Below are positions 1-54,715 of a stretch of DNA of 64,000 bases, piece by piece; the first letter of the stretch is position 1; each line of letters starts with the position of its first letter. Below the pieces are notes generated by a model that was not told where the DNA came from, did no database searches, and saw only the letters and a program-made list of their open reading frames with translations. The stretch comes from Meghimatium bilineatum. Taxonomy: Eukaryota > Mollusca > Gastropoda > Stylommatophora > Philomycidae. Both the position numbers and the translations under genes were made by a program. The DNA lies in NCBI GenBank assembly GCA_034231615.1, contig CM067306.1:45204094-45268093 (forward strand). Direction: 5' to 3'.

Positions 1-189
1 AAGCTTACTACACTAGAATTGAGTGTATTCTGGCCAATTGCACATGATTTCGTTGTATGGCACCTTAATACTGCAGATCACTGGCATATTAAACACGAAT
101 TGGGTGTATTGCAGTTTAGTACGCCAAAAATCGTTGTATTCTTGGATATTACTCACACATTCATTGTACTGAAGCTTACTACACTAGAA

Positions 190-249
190 TTGAGTGTATT
201 CTGGCCTATTACACATGATTTCGTTGTATTGCAGCTTAATACGTCAGAA
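190..249 (+). repeat. Internal A-B dimer 1 (60 bp)
   Basis: A full type A block (190-219, core TCTGGCCTATTAC) is followed by a full type B block (220-249, core TGCAGCTTAATACG). This is one intact 60-base unit of the presumed ancestral dimer. Confidence 0.88.
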
Positions 250-300
250 CACTGGCGTATCACATACGAATTGGGCGTATTGCAGTTTAGTACGCCACAA
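250..300 (+). repeat. Internal A-B dimer 2, shortened by 9 bp (51 bp)
   Basis: The type A half (250-270) starts directly at CACTGGCGTAT and lacks the nine-base TTnnkTGTA head that every other block has. The type B half (271-300, core TGCAGTTTAGTACG) is complete. The missing nine bases explain why the monomer is 171 and not 180 bases. Every monomer I inspected shares this shortened dimer, so the deletion predates amplification of the array. Confidence 0.87.
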
Positions 301-360
301 CTGGTTGTATTCTGGGATATTACTCACAAATTCATTGTACTGAAGCTTACTACACTAGAA
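301..360 (+). repeat. Internal A-B dimer 3 (60 bp), carries the HindIII site
   Basis: Type A block 301-330 (core TCTGGGATATTAC) is followed by type B block 331-360 (core TGAAGCTTACTAC). The AAGCTT used to phase the array is the type B core with one base changed relative to TGCAGCTTA in dimer 1. Monomer variants have lost the site (AAGCGT, AATCTT and AAGCTAAC forms). Confidence 0.87.
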
Positions 361-3300
361 TTGAATGTATTCTAGCCTATTACACATGATTTCCTTGTTG
401 TGCAGCTTAATTCTTCAGAACTCTGGCGTATTACACACAAATTAGGTGTATTGCAGTTTAGTACGCTAAATCTCGTTGTATTCTGGCATATTACTCACAA
501 ATTCATTGTACTGAAGCTTACTACACTATAATTGAGTGTATTCTGGCCCATTACACATGATTTCGTTGTATTGCATCTTAATACTGCAGAACACTGGCGT
601 ATTAAACACGAATTGGGTGTATTGCAGTTTAGTACGCCAAAACTCGTTGTATTCTGGCATATTACTCACAAATTGGGTGTACTGAAGCTTACTACACTAG
701 AATTGAGTGTATTCTGGCCTATTGCACATGATTTCGTTGTACTGCAGCTTAATACGTCAGAACACTGGCGTATTACACAAGAATTGAGTGTATTGCAGTT
801 TAGTACGACAAAACTCGTTGTATTCTGGGATATTACTCACAAATTCATTGTACTGAAGCTTACTACAATAGAATTGAGTATATTCTGGCCTATAACACAT
901 GATTTCGTTGTATTACATCTTAATACTGCAGATCACTGGCGTATTAAACACGAATTGGGTGTATTGCAGTTTAGTATGCCAAAATTTTTGTATTCTGGGA
1001 TATTACTCACATATTCATTGTACTGAAGCTTACTACACTAGAATTGAGTGTATTCTGGCCTATTACTCATGATTTCGTTGTAGTGCAGCTTAATGCGTCA
1101 GAACACTGGCGTATCACATACGAATTGGGTGTATTGCAGTTTAGTACGCCACAACTGGTTGTATTCTGGCACATTACTCACAAATTCATTGTACTGAAGC
1201 TTACCACACTAGAATTGAGTGTATTCTGGTCCATTACACATGATTTCGTTGTATTGCAGCTTAATACTTCAGAACACTGGCGTATTAAACACGATTTGGG
1301 AGTATTGCAGTTTAGTACGCCAAAACTCGTTGTATTCTGGCATATTAATCACAAATTCATTGCATTGAAGCTTACTACACTAGAATTGAGTGTATACTGG
1401 CCTATTGCACATGATTTCGTTGTATTGCAGCTTAATACGTCAGAACACTGGCGTATCACATACGAATTGGTTGTATTGCAGTTTAGTACGCCACAACTGG
1501 TTGTATTCTGGCATATTACTCACAAATTCATTGTACTGAAGCTTACTACACTATAATTGAGTGTATTCTGGCCCATTACACATGATTTCGTTGTATTGCA
1601 CCTTAATACTGCAGAACACTGGCGTATTAAACACGAATTGGGTGTATTGCAGTTTAGTACGCCAAAACTCGTTGTATTCTGGCATATTACTCACAAATTG
1701 GGTGTACTGAAGCTTACTACACTAGAATTGAGTGTATTCTGGCCTATTGCACATGATTTCGTTGTAGTGCAGCTTAATACTTCAGAACTCTTGCGTATTA
1801 CACACAAATTGGGTGTATTGCAGTTTAGTATTCTAAAACTCGTTGTATTCTGGCATATTACTCACAAATTCATTGTACTGAAGCTTACTACACTAGAAGT
1901 GAGTGTATTCTGGCCCATTACACATGATTTCGTTGTATTGCACCTTAATACTGCAGAACACTGGCGTATTAAACACGAATTGGGTGTATTGCAGTTTAGT
2001 ACGCCAAAACTCGTTGTATTCTGGGATATTACTCACAAATTGGGTGTACTGAAGCTTACTACACTAGGATTGAGTGTATTCTGGCCTATTGTACATGATT
2101 TCGTTGTACTGCAGCTTAATACGTCAGGACACTGGCGTATTACACAAGAATTGAGTGTATTGCAGTTTAGTACGCCAAAACTCGTTGTATTCTGGGATAT
2201 TACTCACAAATTCATTGTACTGAAGCTTAATGCACTAGAATTGAGTGTATTCTGGCCTATAACACATGATTTCGTTGTATGGCACCTTAATACTGCAGAT
2301 CACTGTCGTATTAAACACGAATTGGGTGTATTGCAGTTTAGTACGACAAAAATCGTTGTATTCTGGGATATTACTCACATATTCATTGTACTGAAGCTTA
2401 CTACACTAGAATTGAGTGTATTCTGGCCTATTACACATGATTTCGTTGTATTGCAGCTTAATACGTCAGAACACTGGCGTATCACATACGAATTGGTTGT
2501 ATTGCAGTTTAGTACGCCACAACTGGTTGTATTCTGGCATATTACTCACAAATTCATTGTACTGAAGCTTACTACACTATAATTGAGTGTATTCTGGCCC
2601 ATTACACATGATTTCGTTGTATTGCACCTTAATACTGCAGAACACTGGCGTATTAAACACGAATTGGGTGTATTGCAGTTTAGTACGCCAAAACTCGTTG
2701 TATTCTGGGATATTACTCACAAATTGGGTGTACTGAAGCTTACTACACTAGGATTGAGTGTATTCTGGCCTATTGTACATGATTTCGTTGTACTGCAGCT
2801 TAATACGTCAGGACACTGGCGTATTACACAAGAATTGAGTGTATTGCAGTTTAGTACGCCAAAACTCGTTGTATTCTGGGATATTACTCACAAATTCATT
2901 GTACTGAAGCTTAATGCACTAGAATTGAGTGTATTCTGGCCTATAACACATGATTTCGTTGTATGGCACCTTAATACTGCAGATCACTGGCGTATTAAAC
3001 ACGAATTGGGTGTATTGCAGTTTAGTACGCCAAAAATCGTTGTATTCTGGGATATTACTCACAAATTCATTGTACTGAAGCTTAATGCACTAGAATTGAG
3101 TGTATTCTGGCCTATAACACATGATTTCGTTGTATGGCACCTTAATACTGCAGATCACTGGCGTATTAAACACGAATTGGGTGTATTGCAGTTTAGTACG
3201 CCAAAAATCGTTGTATTCTGGGATATTACTCACAAATTCATTGTACTGAAGCTTAATGCACTAGAATTGAGTGTATTCTGGCCTATAACACATGATTTCG

Positions 3301-3761
3301 TTGTATGGCACCTTAATACTGCAGATCACTGGCGTATTAAACACGAATTGGGTGTATTGCAGTTTAGTACGCCAAAAATCGTTGTATTCTGGCATATTAC
3401 TCACAAATTGGTTGTACTGAAGCTTACTACACTAGAATTGAGTGTATTCTGGCCAATTGCACACGATTTCGTTGTATGGCACCTTAATACTGCAGATCAC
3501 TGGCATATTAAACACGAATTGGGTGTATTGCAGTTTAGTACGCCAAAAATCGTTGTATTCTTGGATATTACTCACACATTCATTGTACTGAAGCTTACTA
3601 CACTAGAATTGAGTGTATTCTGGCCTATTACACATGATTTCGTTGTATTGCAGCTTAATACGTCAGAACACTGGCGTATCACATACGAATTGGGCGTATT
3701 GCAGTTTAGTACGCCACAACTGGTTGTATTCTGGGATATTACTCACAAATTCATTGTACTG
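343..3761 (+). repeat. Region-1 HOR copy 1: 20 monomers, 3419 bp
   Basis: It starts with the marker monomer carrying TTCTAGCC, TTCCTTGTTGTG and AATTCTTCAG, which returns at 3762. The length is 20 x 171 minus one base, the loss being near 984-989 (CCAAAATTTTTG in place of CCAAAAATCGTTG). Near its end are three near-identical monomers in a row from 2907. Compared with copy 2 it lacks four monomers' net length in its middle, including the AATAGGTCAG monomer. Confidence 0.85.
2907..3419 (+). repeat. Local triplication of a single monomer
   Basis: Three monomers start with AAGCTTAATGCACTAG at 2907, 3078 and 3249. By eye the first two are identical over 171 bases. The third differs only near its end, where the D-type ending (GGGATATT) gives way to GGCATATT and TTGGTTGTA. 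This is the shortest-period homogenisation in the window and implies very recent one-monomer duplication. The same monomer run recurs in HOR copies 2 and 4. Confidence 0.85.
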
Positions 3762-6700
3762 AAGCTTACTACACTAGAATTGAATGTATTCTAGCCTATT
3801 ACACATGATTTCCTTGTTGTGCAGCTTAATTCTTCAGAACTCTGGCGTATTACACACAAATTAGGTGTATTGCAGTTTAGTACGCTAAATCTCGTTGTAT
3901 TCTGGCATATTACTCACAAATTCATTGTACTGAAGCTTACTACACTATAATTGAGTGTATTCTGGCCCATTACACATGATTTCGTTGTATTGCATCTTAA
4001 TACTGCAGAACACTGGCGTATTAAACACGAATTGGGTGTATTGCAGTTTAGTACGCCAAAACTCGTTGTATTCTGGCATATTACTCACAAATTGGGTGTA
4101 CTGAAGCTTACTACACTAGAATTGAGTGTATTCTGGCCTATTGCACATGATTTCGTTGTACTGCAGCTTAATACGTCAGAACACTGGCGTATTACACAAG
4201 AATTGAGTGTATTGCAGTTTAGTACGACAAAACTCGTTGTATTCTGGGATATTACTCACAAATTCATTGTACTGAAGCTTACTACAATAGAATTGAGTAT
4301 ATTCTGGCCTATAACACATGATTTCGTTGTATTACATCTTAATACTGCAGATCACTGGCGTATTAAACACGAATTGGGTGTATTGCAGTTTAGTATGCCA
4401 AAATTTTTGTATTCTGGGATATTACTCACATATTCATTGTACTGAAGCTTACTACACTAGAATTGAGTGTATTCTGGCCTATTACTCATGATTTCGTTGT
4501 AGTGCAGCTTAATGCGTCAGAACACTGGCGTATCACATACGAATTGGGTGTATTGCAGTTTAGTACGCCACAACTGGTTGTATTCTGGCACATTACTCAC
4601 AAATTCATTGTACTGAAGCTTACCACACTAGAATTGAGTGTATTCTGGTCCATTACACATGATTTCGTTGTATTGCAGCTTAATACTTCAGAACACTGGC
4701 GTATTAAACACGATTTGGGAGTATTGCAGTTTAGTACGCCAAAACTCGTTGTATTCTGGCATATTAATCACAAATTCATTGCATTGAAGCTTACTACACT
4801 AGAATTGAGTGTATACTGGCCTATTGCACATGATTTTGTTGTATTGCACCTTAATACTGCAGAACACTGGCGTATTAAACACGAATTGGGTGTATTGTAG
4901 TTTAGTACGCCAAAACTCGTTGTATTCTGGCATATTACTCACAAATTGGTTGTACTGAAGCTTACTACACTAGAATTGAGTGTATTCTGGCCAATTGAAC
5001 ATGATTTCTTTGTACTGCAGCTTAATAGGTCAGAAAACTGGCGTATTACACAAGAATTGGGTGTATTGCAGTTTATTACGCCAAAACTCGTTGTATTCTG
5101 GGATATTACTAACAAATTCATTGTACTGAAGCTTACTACACTAGAATTGAGTGTTTTCTAGCCTATTACACATGATTTCGTTTTAGTGCAGCTTAATACT
5201 TCAGAACACTGGCGTATTAAACACGATTTGGGTGTATTGCAGTTTAGTACGCCAAAACGCATTGTATTCTGGCATATTACTCACAAATTGTGTGTACTGA
5301 AGCGTACTACACTAGAATTGAGTGTTTTCTGGCCTATTGCACATGATTTCGTTGTACTGCAGCTTAATACGTCAGAACACTGGCGTATTACACACAAATT
5401 GTGTGTATTGCAGTTTAGTACGCCAAAACTCGTTGTATTCTGGCATATTACTCACAAATTGGGTGTACTGAAGCTTACTACACTAGAATTGAGTGTATTC
5501 TGGCCTATTGCATATGATTCCGTTGTACTGCAGCATTATACGTCAGAACACTGGCGTATTACACAAGAATTGGGTGTATTGCAGTTTAGTACGCCAAAAC
5601 TCGTTGTATTCTGGGATATTACTCACAAATTCATTGTACTGAAGCTTACTACAATAGAATTGAGTATATTCTGGCCTATTACTCATGATTTCGTTGTAGT
5701 GCAGCTTAATGCGTCAGAACACTGGCGTATCACATACGAATTGGGTGTATTGCAGTTTAGTACGCCACAACTGGTTGTATTCTGGCACATTACTCACAAA
5801 TTCATTGTACTGAAGCTTACTACACTAGAATTGAGTGTATTCTGGTCCATTACACATGATTTCGTTGTATTGCAGCTTAATACTTCAGAACACTGGCGTA
5901 TTAAACACGATTTGGGAGTATTGCAGTTTAGTACGCCAAAACTCGTTGTATTCTGGCATATTAATCACAAATTCATTGCATTGAAGCTTACTACACTAGA
6001 ATTGAGTGTATACTGGCCTATTGCACATGATTTTGTTGTATTGCACCTTAATACTGCAGAACACTGGCGTATTAAACACGAATTGGGTGTATTGTAGTTT
6101 AGTACGCCAAAACTCGTTGTATTCTGGCATATTACTCACAAATTGGTTGTACTGAAGCTTACTACACTAGAATTGAGTGTATTCTGGCCTATTACACATG
6201 ATTTCGTTGTATTGCAGCTTAATACGTCAGAACACTGGCGTATCACATACGAATTGGTTGTATTGCAGTTTAGTACGCCACAACTGGTTGTATTCTGGCA
6301 TATTACTCACAAATTCATTGTACTGAAGCTTACTACACTATAATTGAGTGTATTCTGGCCCATTACACATGATTTCGTTGTATTGCACCTTAATACTGCA
6401 GAACACTGGCGTATTAAACACGAATTGGGTGTATTGCAGTTTAGTACGCCAAAACTCGTTGTATTCTGGCATATTACTCACAAATTGGGTGTACTGAAGC
6501 TTACTACACTAGAATTGAGTGTATTCTGGCCTATTGCACATGATTTCGTTGTAGTGCAGCTTAATACTTCAGAACTCTTGCGTATTACACACAAATTGGG
6601 TGTATTGCAGTTTAGTATTCTAAAACTCGTTGTATTCTGGCATATTACTCACAAATTCATTGTACTGAAGCTTACTACACTAGAAGTGAGTGTATTCTGG

Positions 6701-7864
6701 CCCATTACACATGATTTCGTTGTATTGCACCTTAATACTGCAGAACACTGGCGTATTAAACACGAATTGGGTGTATTGCAGTTTAGTACGCCAAAACTCG
6801 TTGTATTCTGGGATATTACTCACAAATTGGGTGTACTGAAGCTTACTACACTAGGATTGAGTGTATTCTGGCCTATTGTACATGATTTCGTTGTACTGCA
6901 GCTTAATACGTCAGGACACTGGCGTATTACACAAGAATTGAGTGTATTGCAGTTTAGTACGCCAAAACTCGTTGTATTCTCGGATATTACTCACAAATTC
7001 ATTGTACTGAAGCTTAATGCACTAGAATTGAGTGTATTCTGGCCTATAACACATGATTTCGTTGTATGGCACCTTAATACTGCAGATCACTGGCGTATTA
7101 AACACGAATTGGGTGTATTGCAGTTTAGTACGCCAAAAATCGTTGTATTCTGGGATATTACTCACAAATTCATTGTACTGAAGCTTAATGCACTAGAATT
7201 GAGTGTATTCTGGCCTATAACACATGATTTCGTTGTATGGCACCTTAATACTGCAGATCACTGGCGTATTAAACACGAATTGGGTGTATTGCAGTTTAGT
7301 ACGCCAAAAATCGTTGTATTCTGGGATATTACTCACAAATTCATTGCACTGAAGCTTAATGCACTAGAATTGAGTGTATTCTGGCCAATAACACATGATT
7401 TCGTTGTATGGCACCTTAATACTGCAGATCACTGGCGTATTAAACACGAATTGGGTGTATTGCAGTTTAGTACGCCAAAAATCGTTGTATTCTGGCATAT
7501 TACTCACAAATTGGTTGTACTGAAGCTTACTACACTAGAATTGAGTGTATTCTGGCCAATTGCACATGATTTCGTTGTATGGCACCTTAATACTGCAGAT
7601 CACTGGTATATTAAACACGAATTGGGTGTATTGCAGTTTAGTACGCCAAAAATCGTTGTATTCTTGGATATTACTCACACATTCATTGTACTGAAGCTTA
7701 CTACACTAGAATTGAGTGTATTCTGGCCTATTACACATGATTTCGTTGTATTGCAGCTTAATACGTCAGAACACTGGCGTATCACATACGAATTGGGCGT
7801 ATTGCAGTTTAGTACGCCACAACTGGTTGTATTCTGGGATATTACTCACAAATTCATTGTACTG
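3762..7864 (+). repeat. Region-1 HOR copy 2: 24 monomers, 4103 bp
   Basis: It begins and ends with the same marker monomers as copy 1 and inherits the same one-base loss (near 4403-4408), so both descend from one parent copy. It is four monomers longer, with a middle section that includes the AATAGGTCAG monomer (about 4958-5128) and a second copy of a block first seen at 4463-4900. Confidence 0.84.
4463..6097 (+). repeat. 7-monomer (1197 bp) duplication inside HOR copy 2
   Basis: The stretch 4463-4900 and the stretch 5660-6097 match in order and variants, including CTGGTCCATTACAC, GCATATTAATCACAAATTC, GTATACTGGCC and the terminal TATTGTAGTTTAG. The offset is 1197 = 7 x 171. The region between them holds the AATAGGTCAG monomer and the AAGCGTACTAC monomers. 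Confidence 0.78.
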
Positions 7865-10800
7865 AAGCTTACTACACTAGAATTGAATGTATTCTAGCCT
7901 ATTACACATGATTTCCTTGTTGTGCAGCTTAATTCTTCAGAACTCTGGCGTATTACACACAAATTAGGTGTATTGCAGTTTAGTACGCTAAATCTCGTTG
8001 TATTCTGGCATATTACTCACAAATTCATTGTACTGAAGCTTACTACACTATAATTGAGTGTATTCTGGCCCATTACACATGATTTCGTTGTATTGCATCT
8101 TAATACTGCAGAACACTGGCGTATTAAACACGAATTGGGTGTATTGCAGTTTAGTACGCCAAAACTCGTTGTATTCTGGCATATTACTCACAAATTGGGT
8201 GTACTGAAGCTTACTACACTAGAATTGAGTGTATTCTGGCCTATTGCACATGATTTCGTTGTACTGCAGCTTAATACGTCAGAACACTGGCGTATTACAC
8301 AAGAATTGAGTGTATTGCAGTTTAGTACGACAAAACTCGTTGTATTCTGGGATATTACTCACAAATTCATTGTACTGAAGCTTACTACAATAGAATTGAG
8401 TATATTCTGGCCTATAACACATGATTTCGTTGTATTACATCTTAATACTGCAGATCACTGGCGTATTAAACACGAATTGGGTGTATTGCAGTTTAGTATG
8501 CCAAAATTGTTGTATTCTGGGATATTACTCACATATTCATTGTACTGAAGCTTACTACACTAGAATTGAGTGTATTCTGGCCTATTACTCATGATTTCGT
8601 TGTAGTGCAGCTTAATGCGTCAGAACACTGGCGTATCACATACGAATTGGGTGTATTGCAGTTAGTACGCCACAACTGGTTGTATTCTGGTACATTACTC
8701 ACAAATTCATTGTACTGAAGCTTACTACACTAGAATTGAGTGTATTCTGGTCCATTACACATGATTTCGTTGTATTGCAGCTTAATACTTCAGAACACTG
8801 GCGTATTAAACACGATTTGGGAGTATTGCAGTTTAGTACGCCAAAACTCGTTGTATTCTGGCATATTAATCACAAATTCATTGCATTGAAGCTTACTACA
8901 CTAGAATTGAGTGTATACTGGCCTATTGCACATGATTTTGTTGTATTGCACCTTAATACTGCAGAACACTGGCGTATTAAACACGAATTGGGTGTATTGT
9001 AGTTTAGTACGCCAAAACTCGTTGTATTCTGGCATATTACTCACAAATTGGTTGTACTGAAGCTTACTACACTAGAATTGAGTGTATTCTGGCCAATTGA
9101 ACATGATTTCTTTGTACTGCAGCTTAATAGGTCAGAAAACTGGCGTATTACACAAGAATTGGGTGTATTGCAGTTTATTACGCCAAAACTCGTTGTATTC
9201 TGGGATATTACTAACAAATTCATTGTACTGAAGCTTACTACACTAGAATTGAGTGTTTTCTAGCCTATTACACATGATTTCGTTGTAGTGCAGCTTAATA
9301 CTTCAGAACACTGGCGTATTAAACACGATTTGGGTGTATTGCAGTTTAGTACGCCAAAACGCATTGTATTCTGGCATATTACTCACACATTGTGTGTACT
9401 GAAGCGTACTACACTAGAATTGAGTGTTTTCTGGCCTATTGCACATGATTTCGTTGTACTGCAGCTTAATACGTCAGAACACTGGCGTATTACACACAAA
9501 TTGTGTGTATTGCAGTTTAGTACGCCAAAACTCGTTGTATTCTGGCATATTACTCACAAATTGGGTGTACTGAAGCTTACTACACTAGAATTGAGTGTAT
9601 TCTGGCCTATTGCATATGATTCCGTTGTACTGCAGCATAATACGTCAGAACACTGGCGTATTACACAAGAATTGGGCGTATTGCAGTTTAGTACGCCACA
9701 ACTGGTTGTATTCTGGGATATTACTCACAAATTCATTGTACTGAAGCTTACTACACTAGAATTGAATGTATTCTAGCCTATTACACATGATTTCCTTGTT
9801 GTGCAGCTTAATTCTTCAGAACTCTGGCGTATTACACACAAATTAGGTGTATTGCAGTTTAGTACGCTAAATCTCGTTGTATTCTGGCATATTACTCACA
9901 AATTCATTGTACTGAAGCTTACTACATTAGAAGTGAGTGTATTCTGGCCCATTACACATGATTTCGTTGTATTGCACCTTAATACTGCAGAACACTGGCG
10001 TATTAAACACGAATTGGGTGTATTGCAGTTTAGTACGCCAAAACTCGTTGTATTCTGGGATATTACTCACAAATTGGGTGTACTGAATCTTACTACACTA
10101 GGATTGAGTGTATTCTGGCCTATTGTACATGATTTCGTTGTACTGCAGCTTAATACGTCAGGACACTGGCGTATTACACAAGAATTGAGTGTATTGCAGT
10201 TTAGTACGCCAAAACTCGTTGTATTCTCGGATATTACTCACAAATTCATTGTACTGAAGCTTAATGCACTAGAATTGAGTGTATTCTGGCCTATAACACA
10301 TGATTTCGTTGTATGGCACCTTAATACTGCAGATCACTGGCGTATTAAACACGAATTGGGTGTATTGCAGTTTAGTACGCCAAAACTCGTTGTATTCTGG
10401 GATATTACTCACAAATTGGGTGTACTGAAGCTTACTACACTAGGATTGAGTGTATTCTGGCCTATTGTACATGATTTCGTTGTACTGCAGCTTAATACGT
10501 CAGGACACTGGCGTATTACACAAGAATTGAGTGTATTGCAGTTTAGTACGCCAAAACTCGTTGTATTCTCGGATATTACTCACAAATTCATTGTACTGAA
10601 GCTTAATGCACTAGAATTGAGTGTATTCTGGCCTATAACACATGATTTCGTTGTATGGCACCTTAATACTGCAGATCACTGGCGTATTAAACACGAATTG
10701 GGTGTATTGCAGTTTAGTACGCCAAAAATCGTTGTATTCTGGGATATTACTCACAAATTCATTGTACTGAAGCTTAATGCACTAGAATTGAGTGTATTCT

Positions 10801-10940
10801 GGCCTATAACACATGATTTCGTTGTATGGCACCTTAATACTGCAGATCACTGGCGTATTAAACACGAATTGGGTGTATTGCAGTTTAGTACGCCAAAAAT
10901 CGTTGTATTCTGGGATATTACTCACAAATTCATTGTACTG
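7865..10940 (+). repeat. Region-1 HOR copy 3: 18 monomers, 3076 bp
   Basis: It has the same opening marker as copies 1 and 2. The length is 18 x 171 minus two: one base lost near 8501-8510 (CCAAAATTGTTG) and one near 8661-8665 (GCAGTTAGTACG). A second marker monomer (TTCTAGCC with AATTCTTCAG) sits internally at about 9772, showing rearrangement within the copy. Confidence 0.83.
10084..10767 (+). repeat. Tandem two-monomer (342 bp) duplication
   Basis: The monomer pair containing CACTAGGATTG, GTCAGGACACTGG, GTATTCTCGGATATT and then AAGCTTAATGCAC occurs twice in a row, offset by 342 bases. The first copy differs by AATCTT in place of AAGCTT at about 10086. The CTCGGATATT variant also occurs in other region-1 copies. 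Confidence 0.78.
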
Positions 10941-13900
10941 AAGCTTACTACACTAGAATTGAATGTATTCTAGCCTATTACACATGATTTCCTTGTTGTG
11001 CAGCTTAATTCTTCAGAACTCTGGCGTATTACACACAAATTAGGTGTATTGCAGTTTAGTACGCTAAATCTCGTTGTATTCTGGCATATTACTCACAAAT
11101 TCATTGTACTGAAGCTTACTACACTATAATTGAGTGTATTCTGGCCCATTACACATGATTTCGTTGTATTGCATCTTAATACTGCAGAACACTGGCGTAT
11201 TAAACACGAATTGGGTGTATTGCAGTTTAGTACGCCAAAACTCGTTGTATTCTGGCATATTACTCACAAATTCATTGTACTGAAGCTTACTACACTAGAA
11301 TTGAGTGTATTCTGGCCTATTGCACATGATTTCGTTGTACTGCAGCTTAATACGTCAGAACACTGGCGTATTACACAAGAATTGAGTGTATTGCAGTTTA
11401 GTACGACAAAACTCGTTGTATTCTGGGATATTACTCACAAATACATTGTACTGAAGCTTACTACAATAGAATTGAGTATATTCTGGCCTATAACACATGA
11501 TTTCGTTGTATTACATCTTAATACTGCAGATCACTGGCGTATTAAACACGAATTGGGTGTATTGCAGTTTAGTATGCCAAAATTGTTGTATTCTGGGATA
11601 TTACTCACATATTCATTGTACTGAAGCTTACTACACTAGAATTGAGTGTATTCTGGCCTATTACTCATGATTTCGTTGTAGTGCAGCTTAATGCGTCAGA
11701 ACACTGGCGTATCACATATGAATTGGGTGTATTGCAGTTAGTACGCCACAACTGGTTGTATTCTGGCACATTACTCACAAATTCATTGTACTGAAGCTTA
11801 CTACACTAGAATTGAGTGTATTCTGGTCCATTACACATAATTTCGTTGTATTGCAGCTTAATACTTCAGAACACTGGCGTATTAAACACGATTTGGGAGT
11901 ATTGCAGTTTAGTACGCCAAAACTCGTTGTATTCTGGCATATTAATCACACATTCATTGCATTGAAGCTTACTACACTAGAATTGAGTGTATACTGGCCT
12001 ATTGCACATGATTTTGTTGTATTGCACCTTAATACTGCAGAACACTGGCGTATTAAACACGAATTGGGTGTATTGTAGTTTAGTACGCCAAAACTCGTTG
12101 TATTCTGGCATATTACTCACAAATTTTTTGTACTGAAGCTTACTACACTAGAATTGAGTGTATTCTGGCCAATTGAACATGATTTCTTTGTACTGCAGCT
12201 TAATAGGTCAGAAAACTGGCGTATTACACAAGAATTGGGTGTATTGCAGTTTATTACGCCAAAACTCGTTGTATTCTGGGATATTACTAACAAATTCATT
12301 GTACTGAAGCTTACTACACTAGAATTGAGTGTTTTCTAGCCTATTACACATGATTTCGTTGTAGTGCAGCTTAATACTTCAGAACACTGGCGTATTAAAC
12401 ACGATTTGGGTGTATTGCAGTTTAGTACGCCAAAACGCATTGTATTCTGGCATATTACTCACACATTGTGTGTACTGAAGCGTACTACACTAGAATTGAG
12501 TGTTTTCTGGCCTATTGCACATGATTTCGTTGTACTGCAGCTTAATACGTCAGAACACTGGCGTATTACACACAAATTGTGTGTATTGCAGTTTAGTACG
12601 CCAAAACTCGTTGTATTCTGGCATATTACTCACAAATTGGGTGTACTGAAGCTTACTACACTAGAATTGAGTGTATTCTGGCCTATTGCATATGATTCCG
12701 TTGTACTGCAGCATTATACGTCAGAACACTGGCGTATTACACAAGAATTGGGTGTATTGCAGTTTAGTACGCCAAAACTCGTTGTATTCTGGGATTATTA
12801 CTCACAAATTCATTGTACTGAAGCTTACTACAATAGAATTGAGTATATTCTGGCCTATAACACATGATTTCGTTGTATGGCACCTTAATACGTCAGAACA
12901 CTGGCGTATTACACAAGAATTGAGTGTATTGCAGTTTAGTACGACAAAACTCGTTGTATTCTGGCATATTACTCACAAATTCATTGTACTGAAGCTTACT
13001 ACACTAGAAGTGAGTGTATTCTGGCCCATTACACATGATTTCGTTGTATTGCACCTTAATACTGCAGAACACTGGCGTATTAAACACGAATTGGGTGTAT
13101 TGCAGTTTAGTACGCCAAAACTCGTTGTATTCTGGGATATTACTCACAAATTGGGTGTACTGAAGCTTACTACACTAGGATTGAGTGTATTCTGGCCTAT
13201 TGTACATGATTTCGTTGTACTGCAGCTTAATACGTCAGGACACTGGCGTATTACACAAGAATTGAGTGTATTGCAGTTTAGTACGCCAAAACTCGTTGTA
13301 TTCTCGGATATTACTCACAAATTCATTGTACTGAAGCTTAATGCACTAGAATTGAGTGTATTCTGGCCTATAACACATGATTTCGTTGTATGGCACCTTA
13401 ATACTGCAGATCACTGGCGTATTAAACACGAATTGGGTGTATTGCAGTTTAGTACGCCAAAAATCGTTGTATTCTGGGATATTACTCACAAATTCATTGT
13501 ACTGAAGCTTAATGCACTAGAATTGAGTGTATTCTGGCCTATAACACATGATTTCGTTGTATGGCACCTTAATACTGCAGATCACTGGCGTATTAAACAC
13601 GAATTGGGTGTATTGCAGTTTAGTACGCCAAAAATCGTTGTATTCTGGGATATTACTCACAAATTCATTGTACTGAAGCTTAATGCACTAGAATTGAGTG
13701 TATTCTGGCCTATAACACATGATTTCGTTGTATGGCACCTTAATACTGCAGATCACTGGCGTATTAAACACGAATTGGGTGTATTGCAGTTTAGTACGCC
13801 AAAAATCGTTGTATTCTGGCATATTACTCACAAATTGGTTGTACTGAAGCTTACTACACTAGAATTGAGTGTATTCTGGCCAATTGCACATGATTTCGTT

Positions 13901-15563
13901 GTATGGCACCTTAATACTGCAGATCACTGGCATATTAAACACGAATTGGGTGTATTGCAGTTTAGTACGCCAAAAATCGTTGTATTCTTGGATATTACTC
14001 ACACATTCATTGTACTGAAGCTTACTACACTAGAATTGAGTGTATTCTGGCCTATTACACATGATTTCGTTGTATTGCAGCTTAATACGTCAGAACACTG
14101 GCGTATCACATACGAATTGGGCGTATTGCAGTTTAGTACGCCACAACTAGTTGTATTCTGGGATATTACTCACAAATTCATTGTACTGAAGCTTACTACA
14201 CTACAATTGAATGTATTCTAGCCTATTACACATGATTTCCTTGATGTGCAGCTTAATTCTTCAGAACTCTGGCGTATTACACACAAATTAGGTGTATTGC
14301 AGTTTAGTACGCCAAAACTCGTTGTATTCTGGCATATTACTCACAAATTGGGTGTACTGAAGCTTACTACACTAGAATTGAGTGTATTCTGGCCTATTGC
14401 ATATGATTCCGTTGTACTGCAGCATTATACGTCAGAACACTGGCGTATTACACAAGAATTGGGTGTATTGCAGTTTAGTACGCCAAAACTCGTTGTATTC
14501 TGGGATATTACTCACAAATTCATTGTACTGAAGCTTACTACACTAGAATTGAGTGTATTCTGGCCTATTGCACATGATTTCGTTGTACTGCAGCTTAATA
14601 CGTCAGAACACTGGCGTATTACACAAGAATTGAGTGTATTGCAGTTTAGTACGACAAAACTCGTTGTATTCTGGGATATTACTCACAAATTCATTGTACT
14701 GAAGCTTACTACAATAGAATTGAGTATATTCTGGCCTATAACACATGACACATGATTTCGTTGTATTGCAGCTTAATACTTCAGAACACTGGCGTATTAA
14801 ACACGATTTGGGAGTATTGCAGTTTAGTACGCCAAAACTCGTTGTATTCTGGCATATTAATCACAAATTCATTGCATTGAAGCTTACTACACTAGAATTG
14901 AGTGTATACTGGCCTATTGCACATGATTTTGTTGTATTGCACCTTAATACTGCAGAACACTGGCGTATTAAACACGAATTGGGTGTATTGTAGTTTAGTA
15001 CGCCAAAACTCGTTGTATTCTGGCATATTACTCACAAATTGGTTGTACTGAAGCTTACTACACTAGAATTGAGTGTATTCTGACCTATAACACATGATTT
15101 CGTTGTATGGCACCTTAATACTGCAGATCACTGGCGTATTAAACAAGAATTGGGTGTATTGCAGTTTATTACGCCAAAACTCGTTGTATTCTGGGATATT
15201 ACTAACAAATTCATTGTACTGAAGCTTACTACACTAGAATTGAGTGTTTTCTAGCCTATTACACATGATTTCGTTGTAGTGCAGCTTAATACTTCAGAAC
15301 ACTGGCGTATTAAACACGATTTGGGTGTATTGCAGTTTAGTACGCCAAAACGCATTGTATTCTGGCATATTACTCACACATTGTGTGTACTGAAGCGTAC
15401 TACACTAGAATTGAGTGTTTTCTGGCCTATTGCACATGATTTCGTTGTACTGCAGCTTAATACGTCAGAACACTGGCGTATTACACACAAATTGTGTGTA
15501 TTGCAGTTTAGTACGCCAAAACTCGTTGTATTCTGGCATATTACTCATAAATTGGGTGTACTG
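10941..15563 (+). repeat. Region-1 HOR copy 4: 27 monomers, 4623 bp
   Basis: It shares copy 3's two one-base losses (near 11581 and 11738), so it is closest to copy 3. It adds two private indels: one extra base near 12791-12800 (GGGATTATTACTC) and a seven-base direct duplication at 14741-14754. Together these make 27 x 171 + 6. An internal marker-type monomer at about 14187 is fused to a different monomer type. Confidence 0.82.
14741..14754 (+). repeat. Seven-base direct duplication (ACACATG twice)
   Basis: ACACATG is repeated head to tail where all other monomers have it once. This is the largest insertion I found in the window. It also coincides with a switch of monomer type (an AACACATG variant upstream, a CTTCAGAACACTGG variant downstream), so it may be the scar of a slightly misaligned recombination rather than simple slippage. 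Confidence 0.85.
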
Positions 15564-15734
15564 AAGCTTACTACACTAGAATTGAGTGTATTCTGGCCTA
15601 TTGCATATGATTCCGTTGTACTGCAGCATTATACGTCAGAACTCTGGCGTATTACACACAAATTAGGTGTATTGCAGTTTAGTACGCTAAATCTCGTTGT
15701 ATTCTGGGATATTACTCACAAATTCATTGTACTG
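15564..15734 (+). repeat. Chimeric monomer at the start of HOR copy 5
   Basis: The left part (GCATATGATTCCG, GCAGCATTATACGTCAG) belongs to one monomer type. The right part (AACTCTGGCGTATTACACAC, AATTAGGTG, ACGCTAAATCTCG) belongs to the HOR-opening marker monomer. The switch lies between about 15628 and 15650, inside shared sequence. The opening half of the marker, including TTCTAGCC, is missing here. Confidence 0.82.
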
Positions 15735-18126
15735 AAGCTTACTACACTATAATTGAGTGTATTCTGGCCCATTACACATGATTTCGTTGTATTGCATCTT
15801 AATACTGCAGAACACTGGCGTATTAAACACGAATTGGGTGTATTGCAGTTTAGTACGCCAAAACTCGTTGTATTCTGGCATATTACTCACAAATTGGGTG
15901 TACTGAAGCTTACTACACTAGGATTGAGTGTATTCTGGCCTATTGCACATGATTTCGTTGTACTGCAGCTTAATACGTCAGAACACTGGCGTATTACACA
16001 AGAATTGAGTGTATTGCAGTTTAGTACGACAAAACTCGTTGTATTCTGGGATATTACTCACAAATTCATTGTACTGAAGCTTACTACAATAGAATTGAGT
16101 ATATTCTGGCCTATAACACATGATTTCGTTGTATTACATCTTAATACTGCAGATCACTGGCGTATTAAACACGAATTGGGTGTATTGCAGTTTAGTATGC
16201 CAAAATTGTTGTATTCTGGGATATTACTCACATATTCATTGTACTGAAGCTTACTACACTAGAATTGAGTGTATTCTGGCCTATTACTCATGATTTCGTT
16301 GTAGTGCAGCTTAATGCGTCAGAACACTGGCGTATCACATACGAATTGGGTGTATTGCAGTTAGTACGCCACAACTGGTTGTATTCTGGCACATTACTCA
16401 CAAATTCATTGTACTGAAGCTTACTACACTAGAATTGAGTGTATTCTGGTCCATTACACATGATTTCGTTGTATTGCAGCTTAATACTTCAGAACACTGG
16501 CGTATTAAACACGATTTGGGAGTATTGCAGTTTAGTACGCCAAAACTCGTTGTATTCTGGCATATTAATCACAAATTCATTGCATTGAAGCTTACTACAC
16601 TAGAATTGAGTGTATACTGGCCTATTGCACATGATTTTGTTGTATTGCACCTTAATACTGCAGAACACTGGCGTATTAAACACGAATTGGGTGTATTGTA
16701 GTTTAGTACGCCAAAACTCGTTGTATTCTGGCATATTACTCACAAATTGGTTGTACTGAAGCTTACTACACTAGAATTGAGTGTATTCTGGCCAATTGAA
16801 CATGATTTCTTTGTACTGCAGCTTAATAGGTCAGAAAACTGGCGTATTACACAAGAATTGGGTGTATTGCAGTTTATTACGCCAAAACTCGTTGTATTCT
16901 GGGATATTACTAACAAATTCATTGTACTGAAGCTTACTACACTAGAATTGAGTGTTTTCTAGCCTATTACACATGATTTCGTTGTAGTGCAGCTTAATAC
17001 TTCAGAACACTGGCGTATTAAACACGATTTGGGTGTATTGCAGTTTAGTACGCCAAAACGCATTGTATTCTGGCATATTACTCACACATTGTGTGTACTG
17101 AAGCGTACTACACTAGAATTGAGTGTTTTCTGGCCTATTGCACATGATTTCGTTGTACTGCAGCTTAATACGTCAGAACACTGGCGTATTACACACAAAT
17201 TGTGTGTATTGCAGTTTAGTACGCCAAAACTCGTTGTATTCTGGCATATTACTCATAAATTGGGTGTACTGAAGCTTACTACACTAGAATTGAGTGTATT
17301 CTGGCCTATTGCATATGATTCCGTTGTACTGCAGCATTATACGTCAGAACACTGGCGTATTACACAAGAATTGGGTGTATTGCAGTTTAGTACGCCAAAA
17401 CTCGTTGTATTCTGGGATATTACTCACAAATTCATTGTACTGAAGCTTACTACAATAGAATTGAGTATATTCTGGCCTATAACACATGATTTCGTTGTAT
17501 TACATCTTAATACTGCAGATCACTGGCGTATTAAACACGAATTGGGTGTATTGCAGTTTAGTATGCCAAAAATCGCTGTATTCTGGGATATTACTCACAT
17601 ATTCATTGTACTGAAGCTTACTACACTAGAATTGAGTGTATTCTGGCCTATTACACATGATTTCGTTGTAGTGCAGCTTAATGCGTCAGAACATTGGCGT
17701 ATCACATACGAATTGGGTGTATTGCAGTTTAGTACGCCACAACTGGTTGTATTCTGGCACATTACTCACAAATTCATTGTACTGAAGCTTACTACACTAG
17801 AATTGAGTGTATTCTGGTCCATTACACATGTTTTCGTTGTATTGCAGCTTAATACTTCAGAACACTGGCGTATTAAACACGATTTGGGAGTATTGCAGTT
17901 TAGTACGCCAAAACTCGTTGTATTCTGGCATATTAATCACAAATTCATTGCATTGAAGCTTACTACACTAGAATTGAGTGTATACTGGCCAATTGCACAT
18001 GATTTCTTTGTACTGCAGCTTAATAGGTCAGAAAACTGGCGTATTACACAAGAATTGGGTGTATTGCAGTTTATTACGCCAAAACTCATTGTATTCTGGG
18101 ATATTACTAACAAATTCATTGTACTG
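15564..18126 (+). repeat. Region-1 HOR copy 5, partial: 15 monomers, 2563 bp
   Basis: It runs parallel to copies 3 and 4, carrying the same two one-base losses near 16201 and 16361, and then changes into the 25-mer described next. The length is 15 x 171 minus two. Confidence 0.8.
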
Positions 18127-21100
18127 AAGCTTACTACACTAGAATTGAGTGTATTCTAGCCTATTATACATGATTTCGTTGTAGTGCAGCTTAATACTTC
18201 AGAACTCTGGCGTATTACACACAAATTCGGTGTATTGTAGTTTAGTACGCAAAAAATCGTTGTATTCTGGGAGATTACTCACATATTCATTGTACTGAAG
18301 CTTACTACACTAGAATTGAGTGTATTCTGGCCTATTACACATGATTTCGTTGTATTGCAGCTTAATACGTCAGAACACTGGCGTATTAAACACGAATTGG
18401 GTGTATTGCAGTTTAGTACGCCAAAACTCGTTGTATTCTGGCATATTACTCACAAATTGGGTGTACTGAAGCTTACTACACTAGAATTGAGTGTATTCTG
18501 GCCTATTGCACATGATTTCGTTGTAGTGCAGCTTAATACTTCAGAACTCTTGCGTATTACACACAAATTGGGTGTATTGCAGTTTAGTATTCTAAAACTC
18601 GTTGTATTCTGGCATATTACTCACAAATTCATTGTACTGAAGCTTACTACACTAGAAGTGAGTGTATTCTGGCCCATTACACATGATTTCGTTGTATTGC
18701 ACCTTAATACTGCAGAACACTGTCGTATTAAACACGAATTGGGTGTATTGCAGTTTAGTACGCCAAAACTCGTTGTATTCTGGGATATTACTCACAAATT
18801 GGGTGTACTGAAGCTTACTACACTAGGATTGAGTGTATTCTGGCCTATTGTACATGATTTCGTTGTACTGCAGCTTAATACGTCAGGATACTGGCGTATT
18901 ACACAAGAATTGAGTGTATTGCAGTTTAGTACGCCAAAACTCGTTGTATTCTGGGATATTACTCACAAATTCATTGTACTGAAGCTTAATGCACTAGAAT
19001 TGAGTGTATTCTGGCCTATAACACATGATTTCGTTGTATGGCACCTTAATACTGCAGATCACTGGCGTATTAAACACGAATTGGGTGTATTGCAGTTTAG
19101 TACGCCAAAAATCGTTGTATTATGGCATTTTACTCACAAATTGGTTGTACTGAAGCTTACTACACTAGAATTGAGTGTATTCTGGCCAATTGCACATGAT
19201 TTCTTTGTACTGCAGCTTAATAGGTCAGAAAACTGGCGTATTACACAAGAATTGGGTGTATTGCAGTTTATTACGCCAAAACTCGTTGTATTCTGGCATA
19301 TTACTCACAAATTCATTGTACTGAAGCTTACTACACTAGAATTGAGTGTATTCTGGCCTATTGCATATGATTCCGTTGTACTGCAGCATTATACGTCAGA
19401 ACACTGGCGTATTACACAAGAATTGGGTGTATTGCAGTTTAGTACGCCAAAACTCGTTGTATTCTGGGATATTACTCACAAATTCATTGTACTGAAGCTT
19501 ACTACAATAGAATTGAGTATATTCTGGCCTATAACACATGATTTCGTTGTATTACATCTTAATACTGCAGATCACTGGCGTATTAAACACGAATTGGGTG
19601 TATTGCAGTTTAGTATGCCAAAAATCGTTGTATTCTGGGATATTACTCACATATTCATTGTACTGAAGCTTACTACACTAGAATTGAGTGTATTCTGGCC
19701 TATTACACATGATTTCGTTGTAGTGCAGCTTAATGCGTCAGAACATTGGCGTATCACATACGAATTGGGTGTATTGCAGTTTAGTACGCCACAACTGGTT
19801 GTATTCTGGCACATTACTCACAAATTCATTGTACTGAAGCTTACTACACTAGAATTGAGTGTATTCTGGTCCATTACACATGATTTCGTTGTATTGCAGC
19901 TTAATACTTCAGAACACTGGCGTATTAAACACGATTTGGGAGTATTGCAGTTTAGTACGCCAAAACTCGTTGTATTCTGGCATATTAATCACAAATACAT
20001 TACATTGAAGCTTACTACACTAGAATTGAGTGTATACTGGCCTATTGCACATGATTTTGTTGTATTGCACCTTAATACTGCAGAACACTGGCGTATTAAA
20101 CACGAATTGGGTGTATTGTAGTTTAGTACGCCAAAACTCGTTGTATTCTAGCATATTACTCACAAATTGGTTGTACTGAAGCTTACTACACTAGAAGTGA
20201 GTGTATTCTGGCCTATTGTACATGATTTCGTTGTACTGCAGCTTAATACGTCAGGACACTGGCGTATTACACAAGAATTGAGTGTATTGCAGTTTAGTAC
20301 GCCAAAACTCGTTGTATTCTGGGATATTACTCACAAATTCATTGTACTGAAGCTTAATGCACTAGAATTGAGTGTATTCTGGCCTATAACACATGATTTC
20401 GTTGTATGGCACCTTAATACTGCAGATCACTGGCGTATTAAACACGAATTGGGTGTATTGCAGTTTAGTACGCCAAAAATCGTTGTATTATGGCATTTTA
20501 CTCACAAATTGGTTGTACTGAAGCTTACTACACTAGAATTGAGTGTATTCTGGCCAATTGCACATGATTTCTTTGTACTGCAGCTTAATAGGTCAGAAAA
20601 CTGGCGTATTACACAAGAATTGGGTGTATTGCAGTTTATTACGCCAAAACTCGTTGTATTCTGGCATATTACTCACAAATTCATTGTACTGAAGCTTACT
20701 ACACTAGAATTGAGTGTATTCTGGCCTATTGCATATGATTCCGTTGTACTGCAGCATTATACGTCAGAACACTGGCGTATTACACAAGAATTGGGTGTAT
20801 TGCAGTTTAGTACGCCAAAACTCGTTGTATTCTGGGATATTACTCACAAATTCATTGTACTGAAGCTTACTACAATAGAATTGAGTATATTCTGGCCTAT
20901 AACACATGATTTCGTTGTATTACATCTTAATACTGCAGATCACTGGCGTATTAAACACGAATTGGGTGTATTGCAGTTTAGTATGCCAAAAATCGTTGTA
21001 TTCTGGGATATTACTCACATATTCATTGTACTGAAGCTTACTACACTAGAATTGAGTGTATTCTGGCCTATTACACATGATTTCGTTGTAGTGCAGCTTA

Positions 21101-22401
21101 ATGCGTCAGAACATTGGCGTATCACATACGAATTGGGTGTATTGCAGTTTAGTACGCCACAACTGGTTGTATTCTGGCACATTACTCACAAATTCATTGT
21201 ACTGAAGCTTACTACACTAGAATTGAGTGTATTCTGGTCCATTACACATGATTTCGTTGTATTGCAGCTTAATACTTCAGAACACTGGCGTATTAAACAC
21301 GATTTGGGAGTATTGCAGTTTAGTACGCCAAAACTCGTTGTATTCTGGCATATTAATCACAAATACATTACATTGAAGCTTACTACACTAGAATTGAGTG
21401 TATACTGGCCTATTGCACATGATTTTGTTGTATTGCACCTTAATACTGCAGAACACTGGCGTATTAAACACGAATTGGGTGTATTGTAGTTTAGTACGCC
21501 AAAACTCGTTGTATTCTAGCATATTACTCACAAATTGGTTGTACTGAAGCTTACTACACTAGAAGTGAGTGTATTCTGGCCCATTACACATGATTTCGTT
21601 GTATTGCACCTTAATACTGCAGAACACTGGCGTATTAAACACGAATTGGGTGTATTGCAGTTTAGTACGCCAAAACTCGTTGTATTCTGGGATATTACTC
21701 ACAAATTGGGTGTACTGAAGCTTACTACACTAGGATTGAGTGTATTCTGGCCTATTGTACATGATTTCGTTGTACTGCAGCTTAATACGTCAGGACACTG
21801 GCGTATTACACAAGAATTGAGTGTATTGCAGTTTAGTACGCCAAAACTCGTTGTATTCTGGGATATTACTCACAAATTCATTGTACTGAAGCTTAATGCA
21901 CTAGAATTGAGTGTATTCTGGCCTATAACACATGATTTCGTTGTATGGCACCTTAATACTGCAGATCACTGGCGTATTAAACACGAATTGGGTGTATTGC
22001 AGTTTAGTACGCCAAAAATCGTTGTATTATGGCATATTACTCACAAATTGGTTGTACTGAAGCTTACGACACTAGAATTGAGTGTATTCTGGCCAATTGC
22101 ACATGATTTCTTTGTACTGCAGCTTAATAGGTCAGAAAACTGGCGTATTACACAAGAATTGGGTGTATTGCAGTTTATTACGCCAAAACTCGTTGTATTC
22201 TGGCATATTACTCACAAATTCATTGTACTGAAGCTTACTACACTAGAATTGAGTGTATTCTGGCCTATTGCATATGATTCCGTTGTACTGCAGCATTATA
22301 CGTCAGAACACTGGCGTATTACACAAGAATTGGGTGTATTGCAGTTTAGTACGCCAAAACTCGTTGTATTCTGGGATATTACTCACAAATTCATTGTACT
22401 G
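18127..22401 (+). repeat. 25-monomer block, 4275 bp
   Basis: It opens with a distinctive monomer (CTATTATACATG, AATTCGGTGTATTGTAG, GGGAGATTACTC) that recurs at 22402 and 24625. The length is exactly 25 x 171, with no indel. It contains a tandem eight-monomer duplication. One forward frame is open from 18316 to 20121, but only because the consensus motif lacks stops in that frame. Confidence 0.84.
18835..21570 (+). repeat. Tandem 8-monomer duplication (2 x 1368 bp)
   Basis: The two halves are 18835-20202 and 20203-21570. Private variants repeat at an offset of exactly 1368: TATGGCATTTTACTC at 19121 and 20489, ACAAATACATTACATTG near 19991 and 21359, and GTATTCTAGCATATTACTC near 20143 and 21511. 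The halves differ at single bases (for example GGATACTGG in the first and GGACACTGG in the second), so the event is recent. Confidence 0.87.
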
Positions 22402-24624
22402 AAGCTTACTACACTAGAATTGAGTGTATTCTAGCCTATTATACATGATTTCGTTGTAGTGCAGCTTAATACTTCAGAACTCTGGCGTATTACACACACA
22501 TTCGGTGTATTGTAGTTTAGTACGCCAAAAATCGTTGTATTCTGGGAGATTACTCACATATTCATTGTACTGAAGCTTACTACACTAGAATTGAGTGTAT
22601 TCTGGCCTATTACACATGATTTCGTTGTATTGCAGCTTAATACGTCAGAACACTGGCGTATTAAACACGAATTGGGTGTATTGCAGTTTAGTACGCCAAA
22701 ACTCGTTGTATTCTGGCATATTACTCACAAATTGGGTGTACTGAAGCTTACTACACTAGAATTGAGTGTATTCTGGCCTATTGCACATGATTTCGTTGTA
22801 GTGCAGCTTAATACTTCAGAACTCTTGCGTATTACACACAAATTGGGTGTATTGCAGTTTAGTATTCTAAAACTCGTTGTATTCTGGCATATTACTCACA
22901 AATTCATTGTACTGAAGCTTACTACACTAGAAGTGAGTGTATTCTGGCCCATTACACATGATTTCGTTGTATTGCACCTTAATACTGCAGAACACTGGCG
23001 TATTAAACACGAATTGGGTGTATTGCAGTTTAGTACGCCAAAACTCGTTGTATTCTGGGATATTACTCACAAATTGGGTGTACTGAAGCTTACTACACTA
23101 GGATTGAGTGTATTCTGGCCTATTGTACATGATTTCGTTGTACTGCAGCTTAATACGTCAGGACACTGGCGTATTACACAAGAATTGAGTGTATTGCAGT
23201 TTAGTACGCCAAAACTCGTTGTATTCTGGGATATTACTCACAAATTCATTGTACTGAAGCTTAATGCACTAGAATTGAGTGTATTCTGGCCTATAACACA
23301 TGATTTCGTTGTATGGCACCTTAATACTGCAGATCACTGGCGTATTAAACACGAATTGGGTGTATTGCAGTTTTGTACGCCAAAAATCGTTGTATTATGG
23401 CATATTACTCACAAATTGGTTGTACTGAAGCTTACTACACTAGAATTGAGTGTATTCTGGCCAATTGCACATGATTTCTTTGTACTGCAGCTTAATAGGT
23501 CAGAAAACTGGCGTATTACACAAGAATTGGGTGTATTGCAGTTTATTACGCCAAAACTCGTTGTATTCTGGCATATTACTCACAAATTCATTGTACTGAA
23601 GCTTACTACACTAGAATTGAGTGTATTCTGGCCTATTGCATATGATTCCGTTGTACTGCAGCATTATACGTCAGAACACTGGCGTATTACACAAGAATTG
23701 GGTGTATTGCAGTTTAGTACGCCAAAACTCGTTGTATTCTGGGATATTACTCACAAATTCATTGTACTGAAGCTTACTACAATAGAATTGAGTATATTCT
23801 GGCCTATAACACATGATTTCGTTGTATTACATCTTAATACTGCAGATCACTGGCGTATTAAACACGAATTGGGTGTATTGCAGTTTAGTATGCCAAAAAT
23901 CGTTGTATTCTGGGATATTACTCACATATTCATTGTACTGAAGCTTACTACACTAGAATTGAGTGTATTCTGGCCTATTACACATGATTTCGTTGTAGTG
24001 CAGCTTAATGCGTCAGAACATTGGCGTATCACATACGAATTGGGTGTATTGCAGTTTAGTACGCCACAACTGGTTGTATTCTGGCACATTACTCACAAAT
24101 TCATTGTACTGAAGCTTACTACACTAGAATTGAGTGTATTCTGGTCCATTACACATGATTTCGTTGTATTGCAGCTTAATACTTCAGAACACTGGCGTAT
24201 TAAACACGATTTGGGAGTATTGCAGTTTAGTACGCCAAAACTCGTTGTATTCTGGCATATTAATCACAAATACATTGCATTGAAGCTTACTACACTAGAA
24301 TTGAGTGTATACTGGCCTATTGCACATGATTTTGTTGTATTGCACCTTAATACTGCAGAACACTGGCGTATTAAACACGAATTGGGTGTATTGTAGTTTA
24401 GTACGCCAAAACTCGTTGTATTCTGGCATATTACTCACAAATTGGTTGTACTGAAGCTTACTACACTAGAATTGAGTGTATTCTGGCCAATTGCACATGA
24501 TTTCTTTGTACTGCAGCTTAATAGGTCAGAAAACTGGCGTATTACACAAGAATTGGGTGTATTGCAGTTTATTACGCCAAAACTCGTTGTATTCTGGGAT
24601 ATTACTAACAAATTCATTGTACTG
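22402..24624 (+). repeat. 13-monomer block, 2223 bp
   Basis: It is bounded by the CTATTATACATG monomer at both ends. Its content follows the first part of the 25-mer at an offset of 4275, without the eight-monomer duplication. It is therefore the simpler form of the same HOR. The length is exactly 13 x 171. Confidence 0.84.
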
Positions 24625-54600: not shown

Positions 54601-54715
54601 ACTGCAGCTTAATAGGTCAGAAAACTGGCGTATTACACAAGAATTGTGTGTATTGCAGTTTATTACGCCAAAACTCGTTGTATTCTGGGATATTACTAAC
54701 AAATTCATTGTACTG
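51638..54715 (+). repeat. Mixed segment, 18 monomers
   Basis: An 855 bp unit leads into a long stretch without the CTATAATTG linker. It then repeats the region-1-like monomers (AATAGGTCAG near 53414 and 54612, CAAAACGCATTG near 53642), parallel to about 41.7-42.4 kb at an offset of 11457 (67 monomers). The length is exactly 18 x 171. Confidence 0.8.

Follow-up and report, generated by a model that had tools for sequence, protein, structure and literature searches.

A 171-bp satellite monomer made of three 60-bp A-B dimers less nine bases, and other cuts of the same lattice in one genome

How does a tandem repeat come to have a monomer exactly as long as the human centromere repeat, and is that monomer really its basic unit? 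The question is raised by the 64,000-bp stretch of DNA analysed here and referred to as the window (C9:45204094-45268093, in a genome of 1.61 Gb in 32 contigs), which is satellite from end to end, arranged head-to-tail with a period of 171 and 374.3 copies as counted by TRF. The initial annotation had split one monomer (positions 190-360, exactly 171 bp and rotated by 5 bp from the start of unit A1 at 195) into alternating 30-bp types A, B, a, B, A, B, and had derived it from a 60-bp dimer. Our analysis retains the dimer, shifts the more likely position of a 9-bp loss, and finds other multiples of the dimer elsewhere in the genome.

A boundary walk through the 374 monomers gave 356 of 171 bp, 14 of 170 bp, and one each of 172, 178, 167, and 168 bp; the 356 monomers of 171 bp have a mean identity of 0.945 to their consensus and a pairwise identity of 0.913. 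The array has the long head-to-tail, single-family organization of satellite DNA, with 374 monomers in the window and about 1.73 Mb on the contig as a whole. The monomers in the window comprise 174 distinct sequences, and near-identical runs (at least 98.5% identity) reach 20 monomers at irregular lags. Such local near-identical blocks are the pattern of concerted evolution, and together with the count of distinct monomers they are consistent with active exchange. No regular higher-order repeat (HOR) stands out within the window, where the mean identity never exceeds 0.919 at lags of 1-149 monomers, and no Rfam family matched window positions 1-10000 at the gathering threshold. In samples from C1, C7, and C8 (for instance, C8:24352001-24354000), a 1-bp loss in unit a is found repeatedly, so that 170-bp monomers are frequent in some of them.

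The 171-bp monomer consists of three 60-bp A-B dimers minus nine bases (Table 1). Below 171, the autocorrelation of the window is 0.524 at lag 60, 0.519 at lag 111 (the complement of 60 in 171), 0.479 at lag 30, and 0.473 at lag 141, with a chance level of 0.268; in the circular consensus, lags 60 and 30 reach 0.532 and 0.503, and the 99.9th percentile of shuffle maxima over lags is 0.415 (2000 shuffles). The expected order, 60 above 30, thus holds in both the window and the consensus. A division of the monomer into three 57-mers was rejected, the consensus identity at lag 57 (0.234) lying below chance, as does the window autocorrelation at this lag (0.237 vs 0.268).

Table 1. Positions of the array and of the subunits of an example monomer (195-365), numbered from the first base of the window
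Feature	Positions	Strand	Basis and remarks
Satellite array, uninterrupted, 374 monomers mostly of 171 bp	1..64000	+	TRF, monomer walk, C9 sampling; part of a C9 array of about 1.73 Mb
Unit A1, 30 bp	195..224	+	Dimer-profile alignment
Unit B1, 27 bp in this alignment, 3' end inside the 9-bp loss	225..251	+	Dimer-profile alignment, gap test
Position of the 9-bp loss at the B1/a junction	251..252	+	Gap sizes 0-15 tested; corresponds to the intact B2/A3 junction
Unit a (A2), 24 bp in this alignment, 5' end inside the 9-bp loss	252..275	+	Dimer-profile alignment, gap test
Unit B2, 30 bp	276..305	+	Dimer-profile alignment
Unit A3, 30 bp	306..335	+	Dimer-profile alignment
Unit B3, 30 bp	336..365	+	Dimer-profile alignment

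Two alternating subunit types are present, and like units are more similar than unlike ones: consensus identities are 0.75, 0.77, and 0.67 for A-A, 0.78, 0.70, and 0.63 for B-B, and 0.42-0.63 for the nine A-B pairs, so that the A-B values, taken as a group, do not equal or exceed those of the A-A and B-B comparisons. The A/B split scores 0.163, the top of the ten possible 3+3 splits (the runner-up scores 0.064), and was chosen in 1708 of 2000 column bootstraps; within-column permutation reached this score in none of 5000 trials for the A/B split itself, and in 4 of 5000 when the best of the ten splits was taken. Two weak points should be mentioned. Only two columns are fixed for A versus B, the same number as for the wrong split (A1, B2, A3), and the B2-B3 identity of 0.63 is no higher than that of the top A-B pair (0.63). 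Overall, the alternation of types proposed in the initial annotation is borne out, and the 60-bp dimer as the older unit gains support from the dimer multiples of 159, 282, and 499 bp described below. The open-frame translation, which had been put forward as further support, adds nothing independent, since 30, 60, and 9 are all multiples of three.

The second dimer of the monomer carries a single 9-bp register shift. When gaps of 0 to 15 bp were placed between B1 and a, the 60-bp register returned with a gap of 9 bp only (0.705, with at most 0.490 for any other size), and no better alignment dispensing with the 9-bp gap emerged. The gap had been assigned to the first nine bases of a. As to its placement, the alignment by itself hardly discriminates, with 251 matches if all nine bases are taken from a and 253 if two or six of them come from B1. 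The intact B2/A3 junction reads AAC-TCGTTGTAT-TCTGG, and the B1/a junction reads AACACTGG or AACTCTGG; removal of TCGTTGTAT from the intact junction yields exactly the second of these forms, AACTCTGG, in which monomer position 80 is T (58 of 356 window monomers, against A in 298). This comparison with the intact junction and the TC microhomology there speak for 2-4 bases having been lost from B1 and 5-7 from a. Judging from these sequences, the loss more likely straddled the B1/a junction than removed the start of a alone, and the TC on either side would fit slippage between short repeats.

The nine bases were probably lost and not gained, because B4, from the sister dimer of that of B1 in the 282-bp unit described below, retains the end that is missing in B1. 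When the genome was searched for a B1/a junction without the deletion (CAGAACTCGTTGTATTCTGGCGTATTA, two mismatches tolerated), 21,400 places were found (13,149 + 8,251), and all of the matches listed had one mismatch, reading CTGGCA, which is of the B2/A3 type. A stricter pattern of B1 plus a full A occurs at 166 places in the genome; among the matches listed, all but one (on C5) read CTTACTACG as in B4, not CTTAATACG as in B1.

This genome also contains the lattice cut to other lengths. Repeat units of 159, 282, and 499 bp correspond to three, five, and nine dimers with other small losses: where 171 is three dimers less 9, 159 is three less 21, 282 is five less 18, and 499 is nine less 41. 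The first reading should therefore be corrected in that the dimer, and not the 171-mer, appears to be the quantum of the satellite family. The 159-bp form was observed on C1, in the sample at 70.80 Mb, and on C9, in samples taken at 45.6 Mb and further to the right, and 282-bp units occur among 171-bp ones at the left edge of the C1 array. We derived a 282-bp consensus from 18 complete five-dimer cycles at five loci (ten on C1, four on C6, two on C5, and one each on C2 and C7), dimers outside complete cycles being left out. Besides the 9-bp loss, it shows two more, of 3 and 6 bp, and its five A and five B units repeat the pattern of the monomer, with mean identities of 0.818 (A-A), 0.764 (B-B), and 0.565 (A-B); the A/B split ranks first of 126, with bootstrap support of 493/500 and 0/500 in permutation. 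Dimers D1 and D4 of this unit are alike at 0.88, and D3p and D5 at 0.89, which implies that an adjacent dimer pair was duplicated or lost as a 111-bp block. At the right end of C14:19807001-19808500, a 111-bp dimer pair, one dimer with the 3-bp and one with the 6-bp loss, appears to restart right after itself, and this pair may thus also repeat on its own.

The nine-dimer unit of 499 bp occurs on C2 and C4, with dimer lengths of 57+52+60+57+54+57+50+53+59 on C4. Identity at lag 499 is 0.827 in a 3-kb sample of C2 (44394001-44397000) and 0.963 in a 1.5-kb sample of C4 (17365001-17366500). Its mean identities are 0.73 for A-A, 0.69 for B-B, and 0.49 for A-B, with overlapping ranges (lowest B-B 0.43, highest A-B 0.70). 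These two samples have the 499-bp unit in common, which suggests interchromosomal exchange or a common origin of both zones. A 1.5-kb sample of C23 has a period of 682 bp (0.978 vs 0.603 at lag 171), and samples of the same size from C16, C20, and C22 are plain 171-bp arrays with identities of 0.971, 0.919, and 0.941 at lag 171.

In all 19 chosen loci, from 16 contigs, mean next-neighbour identity is higher for A-A and B-B than for A-B and B-A, in alignments made with a dimer profile that was trained on the window and leans towards A/B; C9 entered this test with window positions 1-3000 only. Dimers with a leading gap, as given by the 9-bp loss, are present in all 19 loci and hence in every sampled contig. 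No pure 60-bp array or intact 180-bp trimer was found in the window or the loci examined, and four A cores at 60-bp steps gave no match in the window with up to three mismatches allowed.

The satellite is abundant and widespread. The deleted junction was found at 67,794 places in the genome with up to two mismatches (45,026 + 22,768), whereas a reversed-pattern control gave one; at 171 bp each, this amounts to an estimated 11.6 Mb, or 0.7% of the genome. Among the matches listed there is one internal zone each on C1, C2, C3, C4, C5, C6, C7, and C8, and likewise on C9, C14, C15, C16, C20, C22, C23, and C25, that is, on at least 16 of the 32 contigs, some of which are counted on one or two matches only (C15 on one). 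The array size is bounded on C9, where sampling places the limits at 44.565-44.570 and 46.300-46.305 Mb, about 1.73 Mb apart; satellite was present in 12 of 18 samples of 10 kb, 9 of 20 of 300 bases, 14 of 18 in a finer set of 300 bases, and 2 of 2 of 1 kb, always on the plus strand. The leftmost positive sample (44.570 Mb) contains 282-type pieces and the rightmost (46.300 Mb) diverged 171-type units. From the single internal zone per contig where one was seen, and from the size of the array on C9, the repeat is most likely a centromeric or pericentromeric satellite of a mollusc, perhaps a bivalve.

Several other observations were made in the genome. The C1 array begins abruptly at about 70,125,065 (sample C1:70115000-70134999), and the 10 kb outside its edge are without a satellite match, the longest open stretch there being 132 aa. 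At C23:39.35-39.56 Mb, the matches listed lie on both strands within 0.21 Mb, switching from plus to minus between 39.436 and 39.510 Mb, so that the array there includes either an inverted segment or a join made in assembly. At C2:121988305-121991928 lies a nuclear copy of mitochondrial DNA, with adjoining stretches (translation table 5) that we take to be nad4-, nad2-, and cox1-like; a short repeat comes next. At C20:39.66-39.68 Mb there are seven matches to globin, spaced about 3.2 kb from one another. In six, the matched stretch includes a stop, a picture expected of a tandem or multi-domain globin gene when the reading runs beyond the exon ends.

We regard as probable a nested history of a non-coding satellite, leading from a 30-bp sequence through the A-B dimer to re-amplified dimer blocks. 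A sequence of about 30 bp would have been duplicated, the two halves becoming A and B by divergence; unequal exchange or slippage would have multiplied the resulting 60-bp dimer in tandem. At one junction between dimers, 9 bp would then have been lost, probably between two TC dinucleotides, other small deletions would have changed the register of the lattice, and blocks of dimers may have been re-amplified as new repeat units of 171, 159, 282, and 499 bp, of which the 171-bp block presumably became the commonest and the main form in the window. The two ends of this scheme, both present in the initial annotation, stand to different degrees. As to the step from 30 bp to the dimer, the A and B consensus sequences are identical at 16 of 30 sites, a value that 44 of 20000 shuffles attain in fixed register and 847 of 20000 (4%) with the register left free; a 30-bp common ancestor of A and B is thus likely, with moderate support from the sequences compared. 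As to the final step, the 180-9 lattice agrees with a trimerised dimer that lost 9 bp, whereas a direct trimerisation does not follow from it, the 171-bp forms being interleaved with the five-dimer unit in the edge samples.

The same numbers bear on other readings of the repeat. It is unlikely, in our opinion, that A and B are non-homologous, with the 60-bp unit primary and the 30-bp signal a product of 10-bp A/T-run phasing and chance. The free-register shuffles leave room for this, and the strongest A/T-dinucleotide harmonic among the tested harmonics of 171 bp lies at 10.06 bp (a value taken without a shuffle control), which would suit rotational nucleosome phasing. However, averaged over 25 pairs, A-B identity amounts to 0.565 in register 0, none of the other 29 registers exceeds 0.375, and the fixed-register shuffles rarely attain the consensus value. 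A protein-coding repeat of 57 residues is a very improbable source of the regularity and was rejected. One consensus frame is indeed free of stops over 57 codons (the other five have 1-9), which follows from the units coming in multiples of three. Nevertheless, the distinct variants of the window in this frame, observed against expected, number 122/125 non-synonymous, 44/37 synonymous, and 7/10 stops, near expectation, and variability at codon positions one to three is 0.066, 0.045, and 0.054, the third position not being the most variable; the window variants thus show no coding constraint. The frame is broken by the 14 monomers of 170 bp, by the recurrent 1-bp loss in a, and by the 499-bp unit, which is no multiple of three.

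The order of the re-amplification steps in the nested history is more debatable. The 171-bp monomer might have been carved from an older five-dimer 282-bp unit by the loss of two dimers (111 bp), an order of events that we consider possible and no more than that. Units of the 282 type are located where older copies are expected, namely, at the edge of the C1 array, in the leftmost positive C9 sample, and at the start of the array on C5. Dimers of the 171 type agree with D1, D2, and D5 of the 282-bp unit at 0.96, 0.85, and 1.00 (the last value being obtained with the C allele, at a site where 0.53 of the window monomers have G), and the D3p/D5 and D1/D4 sister pairs point in the same direction. 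However, these similarities also fit a duplication of the D5-D1 pair within a trimer of 171 bp, both forms occur intermixed in samples from the edges, and the opposite C9 edge is of the 171 type. Moreover, the D4 allele with the 6-bp loss, found at 14,714 places in the genome with up to two mismatches, is common and no rare relic. Descent from primate alpha satellite, finally, is an explanation to which we give almost no credence. The equal length, the A+T richness, the megabase array, and the higher-order units on some contigs speak for it, but 171 bp is accounted for as 180-9, and a scan with the CENP-B box motif found no exact box on either strand of the window, the consensus reaching at most 7 of 9 positions, as did or surpassed 212 of 1000 shuffles. 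The source of the DNA also argues against it: the tested globin stretch, one of 35 matches, is most similar to PDB 8oup "Nerve hemoglobin" (1.9e-13) and then to myoglobin-labelled chains, presumably from Spisula and Aplysia, respectively, which points to a mollusc.

As an extension of the nested history, we tentatively suggest that the 60-bp dimer is the evolutionary quantum of a karyotype-wide centromeric satellite, a lattice re-cut into at least four lengths (159, 171, 282, and 499 bp) on different chromosomes or array layers, of which the nucleosome-length 171-bp cut became the commonest; this idea is at present a conjecture that may well fail. If it is true, a single genome would display selection on repeat length picking one product among the many of one lattice. 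The recurrence of centromeric repeats of about 170 bp across so many unrelated animals and plants calls for an explanation. In the present case, the 171 bp decompose into a lattice without an intrinsic tie to that length, sibling cuts survive beside it, and the 171-bp length can thus be compared with sibling lengths in one genome.

The HORs of alpha satellite are generally whole multiples of 171 and its monomers are not known to have an A-B internal structure, whereas the HOR found here on C2 and C4 is a series of nine dimers and no multiple of 171. The repeat resembles the primate satellite in its monomer length, its megabase arrays, and HORs that differ between chromosomes, all of which are described for alpha satellite in excerpts of PMC4053949 and PMC8122249. 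The view that the length match is convergence is supported, as the likeness appears to be one of length only, and the match to the human centromere repeat is probably a coincidence, the two being set apart, in the features compared, by the lack of an exact CENP-B box in the window, the HOR length, and the internal structure.

No description of this repeat was found in the open-licence PMC literature, and the excerpt of PMC2722675 held no description of subunits. Satellites of the molluscs Donax, Adamussium, Pecten maximus, and Nuttallochiton are likewise built from subrepeats, which can re-form as higher-order units; compared by description, the excerpt of PMC5874043 mentions no 60-bp A-B dimer or 171-bp monomer among them. 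As satellite architecture, the arrangement is ordinary and has a parallel in the mouse major (gamma) satellite, an AT-rich repeat of 234 bp composed of 58+60+58+58 bp, in which every unit divides into subunits of 28+30 bp and larger HORs are formed (excerpt of PMC3218096; units of 58-60 bp also in that of PMC8122249). The two share a nested build, as far as descriptions can be compared; they differ in that the present array belongs to an unrelated animal, has a 60-bp unit with discrete losses of 9, 6, and 3 bp, and contains re-amplified 3-, 5-, and 9-mers. A layered satellite build is thus already known from the mouse, and the coexistence of several cuts of one lattice in a single genome is the part worth following.
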